This document shows, piece after piece, positions 9,401 to 63,376 of a DNA stretch of 64,000 nt. The translations under genes were made by a program, and so were the position numbers. The stretch spans positions 4,913,358 through 4,977,357 of the forward strand of contig JABAKD010000007.1 of NCBI GenBank assembly GCA_012845835.1, read 5' to 3'. Position 1 is the first letter of the stretch; the number at the start of each line of letters is the position of its first letter. The notes beneath the pieces are model-generated. The model was not told the origin of the DNA. It was given only the letters and a program-made list of their open reading frames with translations, and made no database searches. Source of the stretch: Undaria pinnatifida. Its lineage: Eukaryota; Sar; Phaeophyceae; Laminariales; Alariaceae.

Positions 9401-12400
9401 TGTTCAGTTTTTTCTCGCCTGTCCCGCAATGTCCCAGAGCTGTAGCTTAACCGTCGTATCCCCCACCAACAGCTGCTTCAGCGCGAAGTCGACCCCAACC
9501 GTCGTCTTGTGGTGCCCAGAAAAAAAATCGTGCACATATCTTCGGCGGTCGCAGCAGGGGTGGTAGTAGTAGTGGTGGTGGTGGTGGTGGAGGTAGTTGC
9601 GGTAGTAGCACAAGTAGCGGTGGTAGCAGAAACACAAGCAGCGGCAGAAGTGGTAGCGTAGTAGTACAAGTAGTCGTAGTGGCGGTAGTCCAACCAGGAG
9701 TAGTAGCAGCAGCAACAGCAGCAAAAGCAGCAGAGCAGCAGGAGAAGGAGGAAAAAAAGGGGGAGGCGGCGACGGCGGGGGCGGCGGGGGTGAGGAATAA
9801 CAGGGTGGGAAAAAAACCCAAAAAACAGGGTGGGAAAAAAACCAAACAAACAGGGTGGGAAAAAAACCAAAAACATACCGAAACATGACCGCGCAAGACG
9901 GCAGACGGACAAAAAAAAAACACCTGATTGCAGCATCGACCACACAAAACAGCCCGGTCTATCAAGGCGGAGGCCATACCCGAAATACGATGACAGGAGA
10001 TCTCCAACACCCTCGGAAGAGGGTATAATCGCAAGTACGATTTTGCGCCAAAAAGTTCTAATGGGTACAAGGGGGGCTTCATGGTCGGGAATGTGAAAAA
10101 GGCAAACAGGCTACAAAAAAGGCATTACATACTGCCAAGGGGTTTAGGAAAATAAAAAAAGTAACAGAACTTACTGCCAAGGGTTTGAGGAAAAAAAAGA
10201 AAAACAGAGTAACATAGTATGGCAACTAAACAATGGGGAGTTCAGAAGATAACGAATGGAACCAACAACCGGAATAGCTATGGCGAAGTCAAACGTGCAA
10301 GCAACCTCCAATCCGGCACAAGAGCCAAAATAACAGAGGAACGCAGCAGTGCTTCGTACAATTATTACTGCGAAAATGGCGCATGGACACGACACCATCA
10401 CCGAACACCCCCATGCGCAGCGAGGCACACAGGCGTGCGTTGACACGGCACTGCAGCTCCAACTACTTCCGCCACGACCAAAGCTGCTGCTACTTCAATG
10501 CGAGGCTATCAAAACCAAACTACCACCGCTCACTGCTGTGCCAGCATATCCCTGGGCGAAAAAGAACGGCCGGGTACTAGGCAACGATGGTGATCATCGT
10601 GGTTTGAACCCCAAATTGCCAAAAATTACGTGCTAGGGTATCCCAACTAAACAACTATACCACGGTGCCAGATATCCCATGCCCCACCGCCGTGCAGCAC
10701 GGTTCCAACGGAACCGTCAAACACTGTCATGCATGGTTCTGTGAGCTAGTGTTGTAAATAGTGCATCCCAAGCTAACAGCTGATGCGCCAGAATCCCCAC
10801 GGCCCACTGTCGCGCAGCACAGTAGTACCAATGGAACCCCAACTCTGCCGTAGTTATATGACAGTGTATATCAAGTAAGCAACTGCCGTACGCCAGCGTA
10901 TCTCAACAAAGCAATTACTGTGCAAGATTTGAGTTATGTGCCAGTGTATCTCAACCAAGCAACTGCGCAGCACGGTACTAACGAACACGGAAACTGCAAT
11001 GGGTTGGTGCCGGTACCCAAACAAAGCAACTAAGACGGATGACAATGCAAAGCCGATAGTTTGGCCAAAAAGTCTCCAAACTTTATTTTGAGGTTATTTG
11101 CTGAAAGATTCGGGGTAACGACGCTATGGGGGAAAAACGATCGAAATATATATGTTTCTGGCTCTTTTTGTGGTCATGCGGTCCAACAGGTCAATTTGTC
11201 TATTTTTCATCAAGCCTTGATCAAAGTTGTCCAACATTCGTACACGATTGACCTTCGATCTCGAGATAGAGACAACCCATGGTCACTGCTCTTCGTTCCG
11301 AACAAGGCCACATGAGTGTAGGCGACAACGCTGAAGAGTCCATCTCGATCCATGCCCTAGGGCATGTGAGGTTGCTTGTGTTGTCCTGTGGTGTTTCGTC
11401 ACACCCTCTCAAACTTCTGTTTTTCGCCTGTTGGAAGACGATAGAGAGTTTTTGTCTCAGTTTTCTACACACCAGCCGCCAAATATGTTTTTGACAGAAA
11501 CCTGATCGGCGCCCGCCACAAATCACCCCCCGTACAGTGAGCGCTCTACACCACGCGCCGGTCGGTGCCCCTAACGAGCTCGCCACGTTCAGAGTTCACG
11601 ACGCTGTCGTTGACTTTGTCGAACGAAGTGTGTGGAGAACACGAAGTCACATCGCGTCTAATCCAAGATCTGCTTGAGAATTTCTCAAGCACCTGGCCAA
11701 GATCGCCGCGAGAAATCTTTTCTTGTCCGGAATTCTGGAAAGTTTTAAAATCATACTCCACAAAAATGGGCCCATAGGCGACCGTTCGGGCAAAAGGTGG
11801 GCTGAAATCTTCGGGAATTTCAAAGTTTTGGCCTTCCATTGTCACCGGTCTAATGCTGTGCCAGATATCGTTATGTACTCCGTGTGATTTCAACAACAGC
11901 AAGAGCGGCGGCTGCGGCTGTTCGACAGCAGCAAGCAACACCTCCGGTATAATAATAGGCACAAAACGATATGTTCACTTTGCTTCGAGTCGGTGAATAA
12001 AGACCAAAAACAAGAGGGAGAAACAAACATACGCAAAAGAGCATCGAATAATGTACACACCGAGGCTTGAACTCAGAGAAAGGAAACCGAAGAAACAAAC
12101 TCAAAAACAAGAAAAAAAAATCACCGACATTCGAACTCTCTCCACCTCGATCAACAATCGTGCGGGGCTACCCCTGAAGCTACTGTTGCATGGATACTTA
12201 TGAGCCATTTTTTTGCGTTTATACACCTACGACTACGTACTTGACCTTTTGCAACAGAGCTCTTGCAAAAAACACGAATTTGCACCAACCAGCTGTCGCG
12301 ACACGATGGGAGAACGGCCGAGGCCGACCCCGGCCGGGTCGGGAGAGCCGACCAAGGCGAGGCGCGTCCAGGAAACAACGCGTCGAGAGGTGGATCTTAG

Positions 12401-21715: not shown

Positions 21716-23480
21716 GAAATAAGACGGTCATACACTGCAAACACCCAGTGGCTTCCTGTGAGCCCCCTACGGTGTGTAAAAGGTAGACCCTTGCATCGTC
21801 GTACATAGCACGGTCATCGAAAAAGACAACAATTGGATCTCGACCTAAAGAATCAATAACGGCAGGCTCGTTTGCCTAGCGGTTCGTCTACCCGCGGGTC
21901 GCGAAGAGCACCGACAGTCACTACAGCAGAGTGGTGGGTGCGTCTGCTGTGCACGCAATGCAACGCAGTGCACACACACAAGCCGTGCTGGTACATGTTG
22001 TGTGCAGTGCGTGACGCGCGCGGTAAAAATTGGGATGTAAATATAAGAATCGTTTACATATTAGTTCAGAGATAAAACGGATCTTATATTTAAGGTTAAC
22101 GTGGATGCAAATGTAATAACCGGATGGTGTTAATATTATTACAAAAACACACTTACATTTCCGTCTGCATTTCAGATCATACATATTGTACAGCTGGAGT
22201 GCATTTTATTTTTTATAATATTGTACGAAGACCGATGGCAGATCATCTGTTCTGTTAGTATAGTATGGGCCACTGCTAAATATACATTGACTGCTGTGGA
22301 CTGGCAGCATCAGAACCCAGAAAAATTGCATGCGTGTGATTGACATTCCTCCACCCCCACGCTGACCTGTTCTCTGTATCGGGAAGGCAACGAGAAGCCA
22401 GCCGGAGAGTTTTGGGTGCCTCTTCCTCTTCTTGCTCTTCTCCGGTTTGCTTCTTCGCTATTGCTTTAGGCTGATGTTTGCTTGCGCGCATATAAGAAAT
22501 GATCCTACTACTCTGCACCTCTGTGTGGTGATGCTGCGATGAAAGCAATGAACGTCGTGCAGCTGGTGCGGTGCTTGGGCAACAAGAAAGCGTGCACAGC
22601 AGTGCACAACCTTGGGAGCTGTTTTCTCAAAGGGTTTCCATAAAATATAGCGGCATTATTACTCGGTATACTCTATCTTTTTAACGAGATTCCCCCGCCG
22701 GAAGAGCAAGGCCAGCAGTCAAGCAGCCGGCGGCCAGCAGTCAGCACTTACCGCAAACCACGCAAGACGACGAAAACCCTCGAACAACGTTCCAAGCTGT
22801 GTTTTCCCTACTGTGCAGAGACTGCGAACGCCAAGTGATGCGTCGACGGAAAGATCTCGAAACAAATTTTCGAAAGCCAATGCCGTTTTCGTTATCTGTT
22901 GTGCCACCTTGTGTGCTACCTGGTACAGCAGTACCTAGTACACGGTAGGAGCCAGCACAAGCCGGCAACTAGGTAGCCAGCAGCCACAAGCCACCGCCAG
23001 CATCGGAGCAGAAAGTGATGCGAAGAGTCGGTCGCTGTTCGTGAGATCACCTGCACAGAGCCGACCCGGTGGGAGGTGAGAAACGTTTTCCATTCCTCGG
23101 GAGCCAGCGCGCTTTCTCATGTATGCTGTACGGGGCACTCACAGCAAAGATCCCCAGACTCTCACATGTGTACACCCTTCAACCCTCGTCCATTCCAACA
23201 AGTGGTTCGGTTTCTCATATGTAGTTCATATAGCAAGCAACAACAGCGCTGGCGGTAGGCACGTATACACGTATATACGAAGTACTCGCAGTGGGGCTGA
23301 AAATGCCTGGAAAAAACTGGAAACTATGCCACAGGCTTAAAAGTATGCCACAGGCAACAAAACAGCAGTTGCGCCCGTGTTAGTATTTTGAAGTGGTACC
23401 GATCGTGGTTCCGAACGTGCTGCAAAACGAACGAACAACGAGGTCCATCGAGCAAACTATCTGTTCATGAGCAGATTACG
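21716..23480. other. Unassigned stretch
   Basis: No supported gene. AT-rich sequence at 22030-22240 has short direct repeats of ATATAAG/TTTACAT. Small frames at 22276-23340 show no motif. Confidence 0.35.
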
Positions 23481-23555
23481 TACCAGGTCACGCATGCTAC
23501 ACGATAGAGGTAGCACTTTTGGTCTGAAATGGTTTCTGAACTACAGGGCTCCTTC

Positions 23556-24362
23556 GACCGGTGACAATGGAAGGCCAAAAGTTTGAAATTCCTGAAGATC
23601 CCAGCCAAACTTTGCCTGAACGGTCGCCTATGGACCCAATTTATTTGGTGGATTTTTCTTTTTGCAACTTTCCAGAATTCCGAAAAAAAAAGATTTCTCG
23701 CGGCGATCTTGGCCAACATCGGCCTGAGAAATTCTCAAGCAGATCTTGGATTAGTCGCGGCGCAATTCCGCGTTCTGCATACACTCCGGTCGAAGAAATT
23801 AACGACAGCGTCGTGAACTCTGAACGTGGCGAGCTCGTTAGGGGCTCCGACCCGCCCTTGGTGTGCAGCGCTCACTCTACGGCCGGTGATTTGTGGCGGG
23901 CGCCGATCAGGCTTCTGTTAAAAACACATTTGGCGGCTGGTGTGTAGAACACTGAGATAAAAACTCTATCGTTTCCCAACGGGCGAAAAACAGAATTTTG
24001 AGAGGATGGGACGGAACACCACAGGACAACACAAGCAACCTCTCACGCCCTAGGGCATGGATCGAGATGAACTCTTCAGCGCTGTCGCGAACGTTCATGT
24101 GGCCTTGTCCGGAACGAAGAGGAGTGGCCATGGGATGTGTCTGTCGAGATCGAAGGTCAATCGTGTTGGGTGGGCAGGGTTGATCAAGGCGTGATGAAAA
24201 ATAGACAATGTTACCTGTTGGACCAGATGACCACAAAAAGAGCCAAAAAATATATTTTAGCCATTTTCACCCCATAGCGACGTTTTACCCGGAATCTTTC
24301 TGCAAACAACCCCCAAAAAAAAGTTTGCAAACTTTTTGGCCAAACTGTCGGCCTCGCATTGC
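23556..24362 (+). mobile_element. H1 DNA element copy 2, nested in M1
   Basis: It starts GACCGGTGACAATGGAAGGC. The right end GGCCTCGCATTGCATTA is eroded relative to copy 1 at 11034-11850. Across ~800 bp the two copies align in opposite orientation. It sits at a TTA in the M1 body, consistent with a 3-bp TWA target. Confidence 0.7.
23567..23947 (+). CDS. Hypothetical frame carried by H1 copy 2
   Basis: An open frame starting MEGQKFEIPEDP, with [20 protein letters not shown] and [16 protein letters not shown], ending at 23947. It shares these blocks with the frame in H1 copy 1. The function is unknown; it is not a recognisable transposase. Confidence 0.35.
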   Translation: MEGQKFEIPEDPSQTLPERSPMDPIYLVDFSFCNFPEFRKKKISRGDLGQHRPEKFSSRSWISRGAIPRSAYTPVEEINDSVVNSERGELVRGSDPPLVCSAHSTAGDLWRAPIRLLLKTHLAAGV

Positions 24363-42900: not shown

Positions 42901-45900
42901 CCAATCATTAAACACACGGCGGCGGCGGCTGCGACACGGGCAGTGGTGAAGGGGAGAAAGGGGCAAGCGCGGGGGGTATCGGCGCTAAGAAGGGTCAGTT
43001 GAAATGCGAAGAAAGAGACGAATCCGGAGTGGCGAGAGGGGGAAAGGGGCACAGGGGGGGGGGATGGCGGTAAGAAGGAGTGATATGAATTACGAAGAAA
43101 GAGACAAATCTGGCTCAAGGACTGATTCATGCCGTACACACGTACGGACCATCTTGTCTATTGCTCTGTTACGTCGAGGCACGGCTCCGAAGCAAGAGCT
43201 CCTCTGCCCAAAGGAGGCAAAACATAGTCGCTCGTGTTGGTCCACCAAGCCAGAACCCTAGGTTGACTATATCTGAAGGGTTCTTTTTTCAATATCTGAA
43301 TTTTCTTGTCATTATATCACGTTCTTGTCTTTTGTTTCTTCGCCCACGCTGCCCAAGGTCGGATGGCTAGTGATGGTTTGTAACGATGCAATTCCCAAGA
43401 CATACGAAAAAATAGCAGCACACAGTAGGGTCCCCCAGGAATGAAGTGGTGTGCCAGAGCAATGAGGTCGCAGCCTTATTCTCGTTCCAGGTTATGAGTG
43501 CTATTCCCAGACGCGCCAAACGATTTCGAATCGGGAGACGGCACGTTGACGGCTTAACCGACCGCAATTTGCCAGGAACATACTTTGACTGACGCCAAAC
43601 TACTAGACTAGGTCTTTTAGTGTGGAATGATCGGTTTTACACCCTTTACCGCGGGATGTTTCCCTTGGCTGGCCGTCTCCTGACGTGTTTGACCAAAACA
43701 GGCAAAAAACAGCGTGATTACGAAAGATGCACGAAAAAGACAGCAGTGTCGCACTGACCATGTCATCTATTTCTGTTTTCCATCGTGACACGGCTTCGAA
43801 GCTCGCGGCGTTTCCCACTTCGTACATCAGGAACGCGCCCAACGCGTTCTTGTAGAAAGCCCGCGCGACCGGCCCGACCATAGCCTGCATGGAACGATGG
43901 GAGAACCAAAGTTTGTTTTAGTGTGTCGGTGCCATTCTCAACTGGTTTCGTTTCCGTTCGTTTCGATTTGTTCGGTTTGGTTTGGTTTGGTTTGGTTTGA
44001 TTTCGTTTGGCAGTGAGGTTTGGGTTCGTTTGATTTGTTTTTGGCTTGGTTCGGATTGGTCTCATTTCGTTTTTTTATGTTCCGTTTGGTCTCATTTCAG
44101 TATGATCGTAGCACAACGCTGCGTTTGATTTTGATTTAATTTGGTTTGGTTGGGGTTAGGTTGGGTTGGGCTGGGTTAGGTTGGGTTGGGTTGGGTTGGG
44201 TTGGGTGGGTTGGGTTGGGTTGGGTTGGGTTGGGTTGGGTTGGGTTGGGTTGGGTTGGGTTGGGTTGGGTTGGGTTGGGTTGGGTTGGTTGGGTTGGGTT
44301 GGGTTGGTTGGGTTGGGTTGGGTTGGGTTGGGTTGGGTTGGGTTGGGTTGGGTTGGGTTGGGTTGGGTTGGGTTGGGTTGGGTTGGGTTGGTTGGGTTGG
44401 GTTGGGTTGGGTTGGGTTGGGTTGGGTTGGGTTGGGTTGGGTTAGGTTGATTTGGGTTAGGTTGGGTTAGGTTGGGTTGGGTTGAATTGGGTTCGGTTGA
44501 GTTGTTCTGATTTTGGTTGTATCGTTCGACTCCGTGTTGGGTATTGATTGTTGTCGTTTCGCTTCGTTTCGTTTCAGTATCGATTGTATTGCTTTTCCCC
44601 TGACCTTCTTAGCGATGTCCCAGAGCTGGAGCTTGACCGTCCTGCCTTTCACCGATATCCGCTTCCGCAAGAAGTCGACCCCAACCGTAGTCTTGTGGCG
44701 CTCTGAGAAGTAGTCGTGCATATATCTGGTGCAATTGTAGAGGTAGTAACAGTAGTACAGCAGTAGAGGTAATAGTGTAGTGCTATTATTTGTAGTAGCA
44801 AAGCAGTAGTGGTAGTAGCAGTGGTAGTAGTTATAGGAGTAGTAGTAGCAGTAGTAGTTGTAGTAGTGTAGTAGTAGCAGTAGTAGAAGTAGTAATAGTA
44901 GTATAGTAGTAGTGGTAGAAGTAGTAGTATATTCGTAGCAACACATAACAGTACTCGTAGCAGGGGCGTGAAGCAACGGTGGGAAGGGGGGCGAAAGTAA
45001 GGAGAAGGGAACGACGTGGGCGGGGCGGCCAAGGAGGAAGACATGCCCGCATCAGGCCAGGCCAGGCCAGACAGCCGACGAGCAACAAAGGCGGCTCCAT
45101 CGAACTAGGTTGCCAAAGACGGATAGCCGCCCCTCGTTGGTTTATCAATGAAGCCTGCCTGAATAACAGCAACGGCCAGGTTCAATCCTTTCACGCATCC
45201 CGTGTCCTCCTCGCAGGCCTATTTCATCATCTCTATACGTTTTCGTGCAACAGGGGAAAAAAAATACATCTGGTCGCCCCCCCCCCTCCTCTCGACGAGT
45301 GTACCTTGCATTGATGTACGAGACTAATGGGACCCCGCCGCCCCCTCTCCCCGCTGTTGTCTATTGGTCTGCCCACCTCTTGATAAAGCTGGTTTTGCCG
45401 GTGCCTGGGTCACCGACGACCACGATCTTCACGGTAACAGTTGGCCCATCACTCTTCGCAGGGTCTTCGCTCGAAAAGATCCCGATATTGAATTGAAAGA
45501 TTTGAATCAAAGATTCGACATTAGGAGATCCGCAGGGGAGAAGATGCGAGCGTTTGAAAAATTACGGAAGATTAGTCGATTGGAAGATTTGATGACCAGG
45601 AAACGTCAAAGATTTGACGACAACTTACACTGTGGAACGTTTCGAGCATTCGAAGATTCGAGCATTCAAGAGTACACCACCGTATTCGAACAGTCGAAAC
45701 ATGGAAATTACTAACAATGGAACATTTAGGGGTTTGACAACTCAAAAGGAGGGGGGGTCCATCTCCGGCGTACCCTGCGCTTCTCTGACTTCGTGACAAA
45801 ACGACATCAACATAAAGCAGAGCGCATCTTTTGTTTTCCACGGCAACATGACACTCGTAACAACAACGAAACCAACACCAAGCGCGATTGCAACATCGCC

Positions 45901-46207: not shown

Positions 46208-46814
46208 CGACAGCAACAACAACAACAACAACAAAAATAACAACAACAACAACAGCCACCTCAAAAACAACAACAACAGCCACAACAACAACAGCATCCT
46301 ATTTCTGAGGCTCCTGACATGAAGAATAGTACGCCTCACCCCCAAAACTGCTTGTTATGAGAAAAATGAAAGCGCAACACCCAACTCACAATTGCACGGC
46401 CTTGGAAAATACACAACGCATACACAATGCAAAACTAGGCAGGCACGTCCGCTAATTTTGGGATAATGAGCACCGTCAATCAGGAACGGAATCGTCAATA
46501 AGAGAAGAAATGGTCGAAAATTGCCAACCCGGTCGAAGCAAGCACCATTGCTCACCTATGATGGTGAGAGCTCTCCTCGGAGTTGGGGTCAGATCGATCA
46601 ACTGCAGCTCGTCAGGCAATCCGTGTCCCGAGGGCTCTACAGCCCACTTATGCAAATCCGGTGTTCTGAACGGTCTGTAACCAGCCGCACCTTTGGCGTT
46701 ACCGGCTTCTTTTCCGTCGATCGCCGCATCAGCCCCTACCGCCGCACCAGCCCCCGGCTTTTTAGGCGCAGACGTGCCTCCGGGCGAGCTTTCGGGCGAC
46801 GCGGCCATCGTCAT
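39799..46814 (-). CDS. RAB32: Rab32-family GTPase paralog A with altered switch II (spliced gene, 3' exon missing)
   Basis: Six exons on the minus strand: 46814-46556, 45464-45377, 44725-44605, 43884-43759, 42235-42159 and 39961-39799, open throughout (about 280 codons) in phases 1, 2, 0, 0 and 2. Exons 3-6 match paralog B nucleotide for nucleotide in length. The P-loop is GDPGTGKTS, switch I has KTTVGVDF, G4 is NKCD and G5 is ETSAK. Switch II is abnormal: WDIAKK followed by AMVGPVARAF replaces WDIAGQ-DRFG, so the glycine and catalytic glutamine of DxxGQ are gone. An N-terminal extension of about 86 residues, rich in Ala/Gly/Pro, precedes the G-domain. It could be a GTP-locked or non-hydrolysing Rab, or a young pseudogene. 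Intact splice sites and frames favour a gene under some constraint. Confidence 0.78.
40065..40165 (-). pseudogene. Broken copy 1 of the ETSAK exon
   Basis: The minus strand reads ...RHGFMGLFET, then diverges where SAK should be; VKLYFQIDI resumes nearby, recalling AKLNFKIE. It lies in the intron just upstream of the intact paralog A exon at 39961-39799. Confidence 0.6.
40305..40400 (+). mobile_element. R7 (TTAA-type) element inside an M1 relic
   Basis: GTAACCCCTTTACAGCTGGA ... TTAGTATAGGGAGGGGTTTG ... CTAAAAGGGGTTAA; the following AAGGAGGCCCGTCAG is M1 body, so R7 sits at the GGTTAAGG site. Confidence 0.55.
40800..40862 (-). pseudogene. Broken copy 2 of the ETSAK exon
   Basis: The plus strand shares the block GGTCTCGAACCAC with the intact exon; translated, it gives a GLIEWFETSA-like string followed by a stop. 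The left half (FIGIDF) is eroded. A ~40-bp minisatellite follows immediately (40890-41090). Confidence 0.55.
40890..41340. repeat. ~40-bp minisatellite in paralog A intron, two blocks
   Basis: Units look like GCACCAGCCGGCGAAATCAC followed by AGGTTAGCGCTGGACTTGAAAA. About five units lie at 40890-41090 and three or four at 41215-41340, separated by broken exon copy 3. Confidence 0.75.
41128..41205 (-). pseudogene. Broken copy 3 of the ETSAK exon
   Basis: The minus strand gives CHRFIGWFEPS in one frame and an AINRATMEY-like lead in another, so it is frameshifted. It sits between two blocks of the same ~40-bp minisatellite, so exon copy plus minisatellite were duplicated together. Confidence 0.55.
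41375..41442 (-). pseudogene. Broken copy 4 of the ETSAK exon
   Basis: The minus strand begins EALKSFCLVE like the intact exon (RALHSFCLRF), then a four-base difference shifts the frame; the other frame reads FMGWFDTSF. This copy best preserves the exon start. Confidence 0.6.
41884..42148 (+). mobile_element. M1 MITE in paralog A intron, next to a splice donor
   Basis: 265 bp; left GACGCGTGCTGCGATAGAG, right CTCTATCGTAGTACACGTC; flanks CACA and AACA (one mismatch). Its right end is about ten bases from the exon 5 donor of paralog A. Confidence 0.8.
42159..42235 (-). CDS. RAB32: Rab32 paralog A exon 5 (NKCD)
   Basis: 77 nt between acceptor GCTGCAG|GTTCG and donor GACAG|GTAACT. It encodes VRLPDGTRLPVVIVANKCDL followed by ASVVDR. 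A MITE (41884-42148) ends only about ten bases into the following intron. Confidence 0.82.
42560..42895 (-). mobile_element. M1 copy (reverse) carrying an R7 insertion
   Basis: Reverse M1: GCCTGCTGCGATTTAG ... GAATGACGGAGCGCTC | R7 42596-42712 with TTAA on both sides | GACCAAATCGTCGAAACG ... CCAAGCCATGGGATG ... ACCTCTACCGTCAGCACGTGTC. Confidence 0.6.
43759..43884 (-). CDS. RAB32: Rab32 paralog A exon 4
   Basis: 126 nt between acceptor CATGCAG|GCTATG and donor GACATG|GTCAGT. It encodes AMVGPVARAFYKNALGAFLM and continues to SRWKTEIDDM. It is colinear with paralog B exon 3, but the first residues, AMVG, replace DRFG and extend the switch II change. Confidence 0.8.
43920..44500. repeat. TTGGG array with GTTTC/GTTTG flank in paralog A intron 3
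   Basis: From 44155 to about 44490 the plus strand is almost pure (TTGGG)n with a few 4-bp slips. It is flanked on the left by GTTTC/GGTTT repeats at 43945-44060. Paralog B has GTTTC repeats at the same intron position (8287-8330, 9100-9260). It is not a TTAGGG telomere repeat. Confidence 0.9.
44605..44725 (-). CDS. RAB32: Rab32 paralog A exon 3 (switch I; altered switch II)
   Basis: 121 nt between acceptor ACCAG|ATATATG and donor AAGAAG|GTCAGG. It encodes [20 protein letters not shown] and ends [11 protein letters not shown]. The last two codons, AAG AAG, stand where paralog B has GGA CAG (Gly-Gln). The donor is weaker than the others. Confidence 0.78.
44730..44945. repeat. GTA triplet array in paralog A intron 2
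   Basis: GTAGTAGCAGTAGTAG-type triplets abut the acceptor of the switch exon, in the same place as the array at 9550-9740 in paralog B. Confidence 0.85.
45377..45464 (-). CDS. RAB32: Rab32 paralog A exon 2 (P-loop)
   Basis: 88 nt between acceptor GCGAAG|ACCCTG and donor AAGAG|GTGGGC. It encodes DPAKSDGPTVTVKIVVVGDP then GTGKTSFIKR, an intact P-loop. The donor position and the split arginine codon match paralog B exactly. Confidence 0.78.
45985..46077 (-). pseudogene. Decayed copy of paralog A exon 1 end
   Basis: The minus strand reads GPAGQGLADQPKLIDFTP, close to EPSGHGLPDELQLIDLTP of exon 1, then continues out of register (HLEERS versus TPRRAL). It lies in intron 1 of paralog A next to a CAA repeat. 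It could be an alternative exon, but no matching donor is visible. Confidence 0.45.
46078..46295. repeat. CAA triplet array in paralog A intron 1
   Basis: About 215 bp of CAA with CAC, CAG and CGA variants. Poly-N/T/Q frames here are artefacts. Confidence 0.9.
46556..46814 (-). CDS. RAB32: Rab32 paralog A exon 1 (N-terminal extension)
   Basis: 259 nt from ATG (a second in-frame ATG lies at 46808) to donor ATCATAG|GTGAGC, phase 1. The product begins MTMAASPESSPGGTSAPKK, is low-complexity Ala/Gly, and ends LPDELQLIDLTPTPRRALTI. It joins in frame to the P-loop exon at 45464. Paralog B has no equivalent that I can see. Confidence 0.6.
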
Positions 46815-57647: not shown

Positions 57648-57845
57648 ATTCGATGCGAGTCAACTCCTAATAGCAATGAAGAAATAGCTGGATTCTTCTC
57701 GCGATAAAAACGAAGGCAATGTACCGTAGTCAGGGGAGCCGGTGGGGGGGGGAGAGGCTGGCCCCGGATGATCTGAGTTACGTCTAGGGAGGGAAAAGGA
57801 AAAAGGAAAAGTGCGAAAACAATAGAAGGGAGACGAGCGAAAATA
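57648..57845 (+). repeat. Dispersed repeat R5, copy 4
   Basis: GATGCGAGTCAACTCCTAAT ... TCTCGCGATAAAAACGAAGG ... GTACCGTAGTCAGGGG ... GATCTGAGTTACG. Confidence 0.7.
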
Positions 57846-57892
57846 AAACTTGTGAAGACGTGCAATGGGAACATCAGTGGTGCCATAACGTT

Positions 57893-59140
57893 GTACTTAT
57901 CGTACGCCGACGCGCTTGCCCAGACAGATTCCGAGAGCGTTGAGGTGATAGTGCGCAAACGGAGGATATTGTTTGCGGGATTCGTGGCACGCATGGGGGA
58001 GGAGCGTCTGCCACAGAGGGTGATGTTTGGGGAGTTTGTTGGGGGTAAGGGCTACTCAGGGGGGCAAGAGAAGGACTGGCTGGCTCATCTGAAGGAGGAT
58101 ATGTCGGTCTTTGGAATGAAATTCGAAGGATGGCGAAAGGCTGCTCAGAACGCTGGCAGATGGTTTCGAAGAGTAGAGGAGGGAGCCGAGTTGTTCATGC
58201 GGAATTGGCATGAAACGGAGAGACGCAAAGCTGCAGAGCGACGCGCAAAGGCTGCGGCAGCGTCATCCACCGTTGGCATCTCTAAGCGGCCGGGGGGAGG
58301 GGGAAGGGGGAGGGGCGGGGAGGGGACTGGGGGAGGGGGGGAGGGGACTGGGGGAGGGGGGGAGGGGGGAGGGGGAAAGGGAGGAAGGGGGGAGGGGCGG
58401 AAGGGGGAGCGTCATGCCCAAGAGACTGAAGTCTGGGTTTGGCCATCATCGTACTGAAAGTTGTGGGCCTTCTAATGGCCGTCACAAGATAGCATAAGAC
58501 CGCCCTGACTTCTTCGCCATGTTGCGTTCTCTCCCAGGTGCCATTGATGATGGACGTGATACCCTCTGTTAGCCCAATGCCATCCTTAGCCAGTTCCTAA
58601 GGTCTGCTAGTATGACATTTTTCTTTCTTTTCTTTTTCTATTTCTTCTTTCTTTTTTTTCTCTTTTTCTTTCCTTGCTTTCTTGTCTAGTCTTTTCTTTC
58701 TTTTCTTGTCTTTTTCTTCTCTTTGCTTGCCTTTTTCGTCTTGTTTCGGTTTTCTTCTCTTTTCTTTCCTTTCCTTTATCTTCTTTTCTTTTCTTTTTTT
58801 CTATTTCTCCAATTGACTTATGCCTGTCGTGCGTATGCGTAGTGATATATACGTGGTAGTCTTACTTGGGTGGCAATCGGAATATTTGGTTCCTCCAGGC
58901 GTGAGAAGTGAGACGTATGCACCGGCCTGGACCTGGCACATCGTAGACTGACTCCCGATTTCACTTTTATATGTTTCTGGTGGAGGCATGAATTGCGTCA
59001 GCTGTGATATATGCGTGTACCACCTTGGGTTGTGTGTGTGTTTTCCCTGGCGTATTCCTCAGCTCCAGAGTGACTGGAGCCTGTCGTGTGACCACGGACT
59101 TGATTATGCGAGTTAATGTGAAAACAACAACAACAACAAC
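57893..59140 (+). mobile_element. 5'-truncated non-LTR retrotransposon (LINE), copy 1
   Basis: It begins abruptly at LSYADALAQ and keeps the C-terminal block (MVRKRRILFAGF-like, MGEERLPQRVMFGE, GGKGYSGGQEKDWLAHLKED, GWRKAAQNAGRWFRRVEEG), a G-rich stretch, a TTTTC/TTCTT-rich 3' UTR and the tail CTCCAGAGTGACTGG ... GTTAATGTGAAAACAACAAC. It matches 62920-64000 throughout. 5' truncation is the usual LINE insertion scar. The frame 57852-58457 is open for 201 codons. Confidence 0.85.
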
Positions 59141-59700
59141 TTGCCCAACCGCTGTAGTTCGTAGCCGCGAGTTGGTTAGTTGTGGGAACATGGGAACTCT
59201 ATGATGTAGTTGAGTGGATACCCGCGGCCATGTGAGTTCGGTTCGCACATTGGATATTTTCATATGTGCGCCTTCTTCGTATCATGCGTTTTAGGCGGGA
59301 AAGCGTAGTATTTACCGGACGAATTTATATTTCTTTTGGTTTTTCGGATCTTCCTAGGGCTGCGGTACCTTTGTGTGACCACGGGCTCTAGATTATTTTA
59401 CAAGAGTTAATGTGAGGAAATAACAACAACTTGTCTACTGATCATGCGTACCGCACTCGTTCGTGCTAGGTGCTATGATAGGTGGGCCGATGTCCAGGAG
59501 CATCATAAGAATACGGTACTCCGACGTAATGGTATTGACACTCACTGGCTGTACTAAGTACTGATGATACAGCAGTACTGGCGAATGCTGACTGGCGAAC
59601 AAATGCTGCCACGATTGGGTACTCCTTATGAAGTAGCTGAGCAACTGACACAGCAGTACAGTAGTACAGCATCCTGCTTGATACCCACGAAGTTAAAGTG
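59141..59700. repeat. LINE-tail related repeat and flank
   Basis: AACCGCTGTAGTTCGTAGCC, GAGTGGATACCCGCGGCCAT, ATCATGCGTTTTAGGCGGGA and a second GAGTTAATGTGAGGAAATAA. It is the plus-strand counterpart of 19880-20380. Confidence 0.65.
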
Positions 59701-59951
59701 TGGTGCTATCATGCGTAAGGCAGCCTTTCTTCGCGCAAAGCTCTTGGTATTACCGGTACCCCGGGGAGGCGGTATACGTATCGAACAGAGAAGAGAGGAT
59801 CGAACCTACGTAAGTAAGCACCAAAGTCGGGAAGGAGATGGACGTGGCGTGTCGGGACTGCTGCCTCCTTCACGTTGGCAATTAGGCAAGAACCGGGCTG
59901 CGCGAAGGGAGACGGAGGGGGGGAAAATACTCTGTCTGGGAAAAACGGAGG

Positions 59952-60875
59952 GTGGACGGGAGGAAATCGGATGCTCGGAAGAATAGGAGACGCAGGAGGA
60001 TTCGAAGGGCTGCTCAGAAAATTCGCACAGCTGCAAGCGCTGGGTCGAGAGCAGGGAAACTCATCGCGGGTACGTACAACGTTCGCACACTTGCTTTCAA
60101 GGGCACGAACGGCATAGGCCACGCCGAGGTGATACTGAAGACTTGCGAGGACGCAGGTTGTGATATCATAGGGTTGAAGGAGGTGAGGCGCAATGGACAA
60201 AGTGCTTCTACGGCGGCGGGGTATGTTGTGTTTTGCTCAGGAGCAGACAGAGAAACGCACGAAAATAAGGGGAACCACGGGGTAGGCTTAGCTGTTAAAG
60301 AGTCTATCGTGGCAGGGATGGATAAGGGCGAAGTCGCGGTTGAGTGCATCAGTGCTAGAATGATGAAGGTTCGCATCCAACTCAAATGGAAATCTAACGG
60401 TGTGTCTTTCATTGTAGGCTATGCTCCCACTCTCGACAAGAGCACCAGCGGAAAGGATTACTTTTGGAGCTCACTTGACGAGGTGGTCAAGGGGGTACCC
60501 AGTAGGGACCACCTCCTTGTCCTGATGGACGCAAATACTCCTACAGTCATGAGAGGGGTCGAGTGGACCGACAGCAAGGCATTGGGTGCATACGGACGTG
60601 ACGAGCTGAACGACAACGGAGAGCGACTATTGATTCAGGCAATTGATAACAAACTCGTCCTCCTCAACACGTATTATGCTACACCTGCTCGTGGTATATC
60701 GTACACGTTTCAGAGTCCTAACAGAGGAAAGGCCCAGTACAGGCTTGACTACATACTGACACGCCAAGTAGATAGACGATTGGTACTTAATGTCACTGTG
60801 CGGACCCCACCCAGGGAGAAACGTTAAGTCGGACCACAACCTCGTAATCGGAAATACTCGCCTTTTGGGCCGCAT
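59952..60875 (+). pseudogene. LINE APE-type endonuclease domain
   Basis: The frame from 59952 has a basic start, then GTYNVRTLAF (~60070), IIGLKEVRRNG with the catalytic Glu (~60170), GVGLAVK, VGYAPTL, LVLMDANTP and RLDYILT. The frame is lost near 60820, and the expected C-terminal SDHNLVIGN with the catalytic His continues in a different frame at 60829. That frameshift splits the active site. Confidence 0.82.
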
Positions 60876-61169
60876 CGCACCAAATCGTCCAAAGAGAGTT
60901 ATCAAAAACCGGCGAGCTATTGATCTACCAAGATTAAAGGCGGACCCGCGTCTCCGGATGAATTTGCGAAACGCGATAGCAGCCAAGCTTGCCCCCCCGA
61001 TACCCGGTAATAATACCGGAAGCGTTAATGACATGACCTCATTACTGACCGAGACGCTACTGTCGAATGCGGCCGACTTGGCGCCCCCTATTCGGCGCAA
61101 ACGAGTACCGAGGGGCTGGTGTGCGACCGAGGAGACGAAAGCGGAGTTGAACGCACGATGGCAGGTTAG

Positions 61170-62470
61170 ATAAGACGCGAGGAAACGGGTCCGTCCTGCT
61201 CCAAACGATCGTGGTCTACGGCAAGCCTTCAACGCGACCATCAAACAGCTGACACGCACGCGGGCGGAAGCTGCACCGAGGTGAAGATTGAGTTTGCCAA
61301 CTCGAAGGGCGTATCCGAGAAGGTGATCAATTTGGCTTCTACAAACACCTCAAGGGGATGGATGTGGAAGGGAAGAGGACATTCAACAGAGCATCAAAGA
61401 CGAGGAAGGTCCATTGCTGCGGGATAATGCCCTCACCCGCGAGCGGTGGGTGGGGTGGTTTCACAAACTGCTTAACGCCAAGTTGCCGACCCTTGACCCG
61501 AGCACTGTGGACGAGCTTACGCAGTGGCCCCCTTGCGGACCACTGGACGATGTCCCGTCTAGGTACGAAGTAAAGGAGGCGATCCGTGCGTTGGCGAACC
61601 GAAAGGCGGTAGGGGCCGATGGTCTCCCTGCCGAGCTCTTGAAGGTTTTGGCAGACGAAGGAGAATTGAACACTCTCGGAACGTTCCACGATATCATCGT
61701 CGCTGTGTGGACGGGAGGTAGCGTGCCGCACCAATGGAAAGATGCAACGATTAAGGTGCTTCAATAGAAGAAAGATCGGACTGAGTGTGGCAATTATCGT
61801 GGCATCTTCCTCGTGGCTCACGCCGGCAAAGTACTCCTCAAAGTCATCGCGGGTCGCCTGAGTGACTACTGCGAACGCGAGAACATTCTGCCGGAGGAAC
61901 AGAGTGTGGGTTCAGATCCCAACGCTCGACGGTTGACATGATTCGTAGTACGACGACTGCAGGAGCTGGCGCGGAAGAAGGACACCCCCTTGTACTTGTG
62001 CCTTATCGGCCTCACCAAAGCATATGACTCCGTCGACCGAACCCTTCTGTGGAGGATGTCCTTGCTCGTTTAGGCGTGCCACCGAGAATGCTCACCGTCA
62101 TCCGCCAATTCCACGACGGCATGCAAGCGTGCGTGCGGTTGGATGACGGGGAGTGCTCGGATAAGTTCGACATGGGTCAAGGTCTCAGGCAAGGATGCGC
62201 GCTCGTGCCACTGCTGTTCAACATGTTTTGCATGGCGGTACTGCGTGTGGCCCCGAGAAACGCTTCCTCGCTGATGCAGCCATCACGGACAACATGGTGC
62301 AGCTCCAACGAAAGGAGAAAGGCAATAAAAAGTGCACTTCACGCACAGAGAAAGCCGACGGGCGGAGGGGGAAGGAAGGGGAGGAGAGGCCGAGATTGTG
62401 GAGTATGCTGTACGCGGACGATGCGGGCATCGTATCCGATCATCAGAAGCTCTGGAGAGGATGATGACGG
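61170..62470 (+). pseudogene. LINE reverse transcriptase domain
   Basis: RT blocks in order: EAIRALANRKAVGADGLPAE (61580-61640), [46 protein letters not shown], and [11 protein letters not shown] (62407-62440), the YxDD active site. Stops at 61171, 61765 and 61938 and frame changes near 62055 and 62265 show it is inactive. Confidence 0.85.
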
Positions 62471-62560
62471 TGATCGTGACTGCGTGCTCGTCGTTTGGGC
62501 TTACGGTCTCCGAGGCAAAAACAGAGATAACGTGCCTGGAAACCAAAAGGCGGGGAGAAG

Positions 62561-63376
62561 GTGTCCTTCACAATCAATGCCGCCGGCCAGGTATACAAAC
62601 AAAAAATCGAGTTTGTGTACTTGGGTGGGGCTATCACCGCAGACAGAGACCTTAGCGTTGAAATAACGCGGCGTCTTCAGAGGGCCTGGGCGTGCTTCCA
62701 GCGGTACAAGATGGAAATCTATGATCGCCCGGGTGTGCGCTTACGGTTGAAGGTGCGGTTGCTGAAAGCTGAGGTGGTCGAGACACTGCTTAAGGGTTGC
62801 ATGACGTGGAGCCCGAACAAGCCTGACGATGACAGGCTAAGACGGGTTCACCACTATATGCTCCTCCGTTGCCTCGGATGGCGGAAACGAAAGCGCGACG
62901 ACCACACCCTATCGTACGCCGACCCGCTTGCCAAGGCAGCTTCCGAGAGCAAAGAGGCGATGGTGCGCAAACGGAGGATATTGTTTGCGGGATTCGTAGC
63001 ACGTATGGGGGAGGAGCGTCTGCCACAGAGAGTGATGTTTGGGGAGCTTGTTGGGGGTAAGGGCTACTCAGGGGGGCAAGAGAAGGACTGGCTGGCTCAT
63101 CTGAAGGATATGTCCGTCTTTGAAATGAAATTCGAAGGGTGGCGAAAGGCTGCTCAGGAGGCCGGCAGATGGTTTCGACGAGTAGAGGAGGGACCTGAGT
63201 TGTTCATGCGGAATTGGCGTGAGAAGGAGAGATGGAAAGCTGCAGAGCGACGAGCAAAGCTGCAGAGCGACGCGCAAAGGCTGCGGCAGCGCCATCCACC
63301 GTCGGCGTCTCTAAGCGGCCGGGGGCAGGGGGGAGGGGGGGAGGGGGGAGGGGGGGCGTCATGCCCAAGAGACTGA
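62561..63376 (+). pseudogene. LINE C-terminal region
   Basis: An open 271-codon stretch with [48 protein letters not shown] and MGEERLPQRVMFGELVG. These are the thumb and post-RT motifs seen in many LINEs (YLG..I, LL.....L.G...W). The end becomes Gly-rich from GGGGA repeats. Confidence 0.8.

Follow-up and report, generated by a model that had tools for sequence, protein, structure and literature searches.

Few elements of the Ras superfamily are conserved as strongly as switch II of the Rabs. Within it, the glycine of the DxxG motif contacts the gamma-phosphate, and the Gly-Gln element helps hydrolysis. Departures from this arrangement have been described in the RGK proteins, which are not Rabs, and in certain Rabs of Entamoeba. 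The RGK proteins Gem, Rad and Rem carry DXWE instead of DXXG, a signature that is reported to be weaker outside vertebrates (PMC4081519). By that description they resemble paralog A, the gene considered here, as members of the Ras superfamily in which the G3 glycine is replaced. In Entamoeba, EhRabX10 is called a pseudoRab, with G1 kept and DTQDME at G3, and EhRabX3, a non-canonical Rab without G2, is called a functionally active hydrolase (PMC8514894). Both are like A in combining a Rab fold with degenerate G motifs, but EhRabX10 is also without canonical G2, G4 and G5, whereas A has lost only part of G3.

One study describes the consequences of losing the switch II glutamine for Rab35, Rab1 and Rab5 with the glycine intact, and not for Rab32; it calls Rab Gln mutants "a trap for the unwary" (PMC3919270). 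As reported there, once the glutamine is mutated DENND1 no longer activates Rab35 and DrrA no longer activates Rab1, but activation of Rab1 by TRAPP and of Rab5 by Rabex is not blocked. Basal hydrolysis changes less than about 1.5-fold in the Rab35 and Rab1 mutants and drops more than fivefold in the Rab5 mutant. TBC GAPs supply a glutamine of their own, but GAP-stimulated hydrolysis of the Rab35 and Rab1 mutants still falls greatly.

We describe a gene pair in a 64-kb window of a eukaryotic genome, probably that of a kelp-like brown alga. One member of the pair, A, is most likely a Rab32-derived pseudo-GTPase that binds nucleotide and would no longer cycle. As judged from its motifs, A differs from the RGK and Entamoeba precedents in that only switch II is lost, within an otherwise well-kept Rab32. 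In the titles and abstract beginnings of the papers found on brown algal, kelp, Ectocarpus or stramenopile Rab32 and Rab GTPases, such a Rab32 is apparently not described.

Two linked Rab32-like genes

The window, by which we mean the whole 64-kb stretch of DNA that was analysed, contains two Rab32-like genes, A and B, both on the minus strand and with about 25 kb between them. Their located exons are as follows.

46814-46556, minus strand: A exon 1, N-terminal extension MTMAASPES...RALTII; donor gtgagc; start at 46814 read directly
45464-45377, minus strand: A exon 2, G1/P-loop GDPGTGKTS; acceptor ..gcgaag; donor gtgggc
44725-44605, minus strand: A exon 3, G2 TTVGVDF and altered G3 WDIAKK; donor gtcagg
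43884-43759, minus strand: A exon 4, acceptor atgcag, then AMVGPVARAFYKNALGAFLMYEVGNAASFEAVSRWKTEIDDM; starts AMVGP; donor gtcagt; AMVGPVARAFYK
42235-42159, minus strand: A exon 5, G4 NKCD
39961-39799, minus strand: A exon 6, G5 ETSAK; donor gtgtgt
15022-14925, minus strand: first located exon of B, P-loop GDPATGKTS; 5' boundary as located only
9539-9419, minus strand: B equivalent of exon 3, canonical WDIAGQ; GC donor gcgaga
8150-8025, minus strand: B exon starting DRFGS, equivalent of A exon 4
5534-5458, minus strand: B exon with G4 NKCD
3451-3289, minus strand: B exon with G5 ETSAK

The four introns that separate the P-loop exon from the ETSAK exon lie in identical places and phases in the two genes. 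All five introns located in A are GT-AG; in B three of four are GT-AG, and the one after WDIAGQ is GC-AG. The sequence-only reading had proposed that all exons are spliced alike, which holds for the place and phase of these four introns but not for the donor after G3, which is GC (gcgaga) in B and GT in A.

An in-frame TGA stands immediately 5' of the ATG of A exon 1. Our model of the A gene begins at an inner ATG, at 46808, which gives an N-terminal exon of 84 codons. By this extension exon A differs from the Rab32/Rab38 subfamily, and tblastn found no match within the window for a B counterpart. A C-terminal exon ending in prenylation cysteines was also sought. Downstream of A exon 6 nothing convincing was found in the window; the two candidates of CC type, which overlap each other near 23,050-23,095, about 16.7 kb further on, and end in CCTR, are not convincing. 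The bases remaining in the window beyond B hold no candidate for a cysteine-ending exon; an exon candidate recognised by eye starts at 2999 after ctttgcag (GHMVRRRMPATKE...) and ends without cysteines.

The closest PDB sequence for each paralog is Rab32 (2.7e-50 for A and 7.6e-64 for B), and in both rankings the best five are Rab32, followed by Rab38 and Rab7L1. The Pfam Ras model matches A with 127 bits and B with 143 bits, and the two paralogs are identical at 117 of 183 residues. On these matches A and B are both Rab32 homologues, and GKTSxIKRY and the TxGVDF region are common to them and the Rab32/Rab38 subfamily (human Rab32, 5oed). Among the five Rab32 chains in the alignment, GLERFG stands in three (4cym, 4cz2 and 6ff8), which are taken to be engineered Gln mutants.

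The switch II change in paralog A

Reading of the exons confirmed that exon 3 of A ends in WDIAKK and exon 4 starts with AMVG, where B has WDIAGQ followed by DRFG, as had been noticed from the letters alone; the junction given for it, 44605|43884, is the exact boundary of exons 3 and 4 in the DNA. In a three-way comparison, A reads WDIA-KK|AMVG, B reads WDIA-GQ|DRFG and human Rab32 (5oed) reads WDIA-GQ ERFG, with KKAMVG in A at the place of GQERFG in the human protein. A keeps G1, G2, the Asp of G3, G4 and G5. Specifically, the canonical Rab forms of G1, GxxxxGK(S/T), of G4, NKxD, and of G5, SAK, are present as GDPGTGKTS, NKCD and ETSAK. At G3, A has DIAKK in place of the canonical DxxGQ, and WDIAKKAM in place of the Rab32 form WDIAGQ(E/D)R. 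It has the sequence marks of a pseudo-GTPase, with one essential G motif (G3) lost and the Pfam Ras match kept. Taken at the level of motifs and matches, A descends from Rab32 yet lacks the G3 of a canonical Rab GTPase.

The direction of the change was read from an MAFFT alignment of partial sequences, with human Rab32 and two Rab32-like genes from elsewhere in this genome as outgroups. On this alignment, KKAMV in place of GQDRF is a derived state of A, because wild-type human Rab32 and the two further Rab32-like genes read GQ(E/D)R. Among 103 sites with an outgroup majority, 60 are unchanged, 19 are derived in A, 4 are derived in B and 20 are changed in both. Five of the 19 A-derived residues are consecutive (G153, Q154, D155, R156 and F157, in the numbering of the A model), a cluster with P = 5e-4 if the block is regarded as chosen beforehand (79 sites at which B is ancestral) and 0.03 if five in a row at any place would count. 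When only residues conserved between B and human Rab32 are considered, four of five in GQxRFG are changed in A, compared with 22 of the other 95 (Fisher P 0.016). None of the 23 such residues in G1, G2, WDIA, G4 and G5 is changed, as against 22 of the remaining 72 (P 0.0013).

A different donor that restores Gly-Gln had been named as evidence that would speak against a lost motif, and none was found near the end of exon 3. The last 24 bases of the exon contain no GT, and at the junction the open frames that continue past exon 3 or lead into exon 4 encode no Gly-Gln. Within this check, which covered donor shifts and the adjoining frames, alternative splicing back to GQ is not supported; for the same two reasons, no simple donor shift would restore the motif.

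One could envision an origin of the change in a single step. If five bases were inserted ahead of an ancestral GGTCAG, encoding Gly-Gln, splicing could have been forced to a cryptic donor within that GGTCAG, such that KK replaced GQ at once and GQ is now intronic. A free alignment opens a gap of exactly 5 bases and places the intronic GGTCAGG of A opposite GGACAGG of B. However, 21% of shuffles fit equally well, which is why we offer this origin only as an idea, and it leaves unexplained how DRF became AMV in exon 4. We regard it as very doubtful.

Other Rab and Ras genes in the genome

A single Pfam search of the assembly (511 Mb in 68 contigs), in which the window is C56:4913358-4977357, gave 66 Ras-family matches, three of them from the window itself. 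In 34 stretches fetched from this genome, a G3 in Ras context was recognisable in 22; all 22 read DxxG and 21 read DxxGQ. The other 12 stretches showed no G3, the pattern may miss very divergent motifs, and matches to the pattern that lacked a Ras context, for instance WDLSD in L047, were left out of the survey. The sole other visible G3 without Gln in the fetched set is DLSGH, in a Ras-like exon (FWDLSGHPDFFEIRNEFYKDSQG) of L039.

The two further Rab32-like genes lie on contig C13 (L050:7797-7997 with L051:1703-3399) and contig C2 (L048:1727-1894 with L049:4500-7394). Both read DIAGQDR, and they are 34-69% identical to B over the matched pieces. Among the 46 loci fetched from this genome on the strength of the Pfam search (L006-L051), there was no third close copy, the best scoring 59 bits to A and 65 bits to B. 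Pattern searches gave 132 matches in contigs of other genomes, with five distant loci at 27-33% identity (L001-L005) that were left aside, and 20 matches in viral contigs, with no relatives among them.

Selection on paralog A

Comparison of A with B by three methods gave dN of 0.24-0.27, dS of 0.71-0.84 and dN/dS of 0.29-0.35; the ratio is an average over both lineages and comes from an experimental Biopython routine. We count this ratio in favour of purifying selection on the A-B pair. In neutral simulations that started from B and applied 85-213 substitutions, a mean of 8-16 of 29 motif residues changed, as against one observed, and at each of five settings none of 2000 runs combined an open frame with so few motif changes. 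A has a GC3 of 0.70 and B one of 0.69, while window GC is 0.45-0.54 per 4-kb block. Derived residues number 26 in A and 8 in B (P 0.003), which makes A about three times faster. The simulations, the dN/dS and a GC3 equal to that of B support, without proving, the claim that A is a Rab and not junk. Judged by its dN/dS, its five GT-AG introns and the absence of change at the 23 conserved motif residues, A is not simply decaying.

A recent death of A is nonetheless possible because an open frame often survives 20-40 neutral substitutions, as it did in 50-25% of our simulations. A would then be a recently inactivated or dying duplicate, in which switch II was simply lost before any other conserved element and too little time has gone by for the frame to be broken. 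The threefold faster change of A is what relaxed constraint would give too, the search of the window yielded no C-terminal exon for A, and the partial exon copies around A (see below) suggest a turbulent locus. Such a duplicate would not, however, be expected to spare the other G motifs so completely when 22 of 72 conserved residues elsewhere have changed, to hold its GC3 at 0.70, to have all its located splice sites intact or to gather its changes in one block instead of spreading them. We consider death of the gene unlikely, if a real contender.

What paralog A may do

We lean, by a little, towards the reading that A is a duplicated Rab32 descendant near its sister B, with its Ras match and nucleotide motifs kept and its switch II lost, which binds nucleotide and does not cycle. 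Retention of the P-loop, the switch I threonine region, the Asp of WDIA, NKCD and SAK suggests that guanine-nucleotide binding would be kept. The lost residues are also part of RabF3, a surface that partners read. Lacking both the DxxG glycine and the glutamine, and with its RabF3 surface altered, A would have no normal GTP/GDP switch and would probably not be served by the usual GEF and GAP of Rab32. It might instead act as a non-cycling Rab32 partner, that is, as a static effector-binding or sequestering Rab and not as a timer. More tentatively, with somewhat less confidence than belief would demand, we propose that A is a lineage-specific Rab32 pseudo-GTPase in which nucleotide binding is kept and the whole catalytic and effector block of switch II is replaced, and which may be a non-cycling regulator of Rab32 traffic beside its sister. 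If this is true, the linked pair would amount to a natural separation-of-function experiment, in which one copy binds nucleotide without switching and its canonical neighbour in the genome serves as control.

The sequence-only reading had suggested a Rab that may be constitutively GTP-bound or independent of nucleotide. Retention of GDPGTGKTS, TTVGVDF, NKCD and ETSAK speaks against the latter. The former would make A an active Rab32 that is unable to hydrolyse the GTP it binds and so recruits Rab32 effectors without end, and with G1, G4 and G5 intact and the Gln lost it has some appeal. In the mutant study, mutation of the Gln prolongs the active state of Rab5, and Gln-mutant Rab1 is activated by TRAPP; DENND1, however, fails to activate Gln-mutant Rab35, as does DrrA with Gln-mutant Rab1 (PMC3919270). 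Loss of Gln can thus block activation by a GEF, and A has also lost the DxxG glycine and some of the partner-facing RabF3 surface, which makes an active conformation doubtful. Permanent activity gains no support over its rivals from these points and seems to us improbable. The basal hydrolysis of the Rab35 and Rab1 mutants, together with the active EhRabX3, suggests by analogy that degenerate motifs need not abolish activity, which counts against the reading of A as a pseudo-GTPase (PMC8514894, PMC3919270).

Exon copies and other features of the window

Partial copies of Rab32 exons, mostly decayed, lie in or next to introns of A and B, as though exons were copied again and again by short tandem duplication.

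9083-9004, minus strand: decayed exon 3 copy in a B intron, with an in-frame stop; 77.5% to B exon 3 and 71% to A exon 3; followed by gcgaga
43193-43150, minus strand: partial exon 4 copy in A intron 4; 44 bases, 75% to A exon 4; no stop in the matched piece
41442-41384, 41158-41134, 40839-40810 and 40140-40076, minus strand: four partial exon 6 copies in A intron 5, each nearer to A exon 6 than to B exon 6

Because the decayed exon 3 copy carries the same gcgaga, the GC donor of B looks old and probably predates the duplication of exon 3. The first and last of the exon 6 copies have frame-breaking gaps. The copies of exons 4 and 6 resemble A over B across only 25-65 bases, and so are a rough guide to what unconstrained copies look like. 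A weak copy of exon 1 was seen at 46063-46007 (E 0.04), and 35 bases at 3098-3064 copy the end of B exon 6.

A intron 3 consists, from 44470 to 44160, mostly of an AACCC repeat tract, one frame of which is open as (QPNPT)n. By eye, 57777-63376 holds remnants like those of a non-LTR retrotransposon, with a tail piece present twice, at 57777-58457 and 62531-63376; one of the pieces gave a weak Pfam match to Exo_endo_phos (E 0.0015, below the curated cut-off) and the other four gave none. The open frames at 11546-11974 (minus strand) and 23540-23947 (plus strand), which have no Pfam match, share a similar peptide, PVTMEGQ.FEIPED..., and are probably a dispersed repeat.
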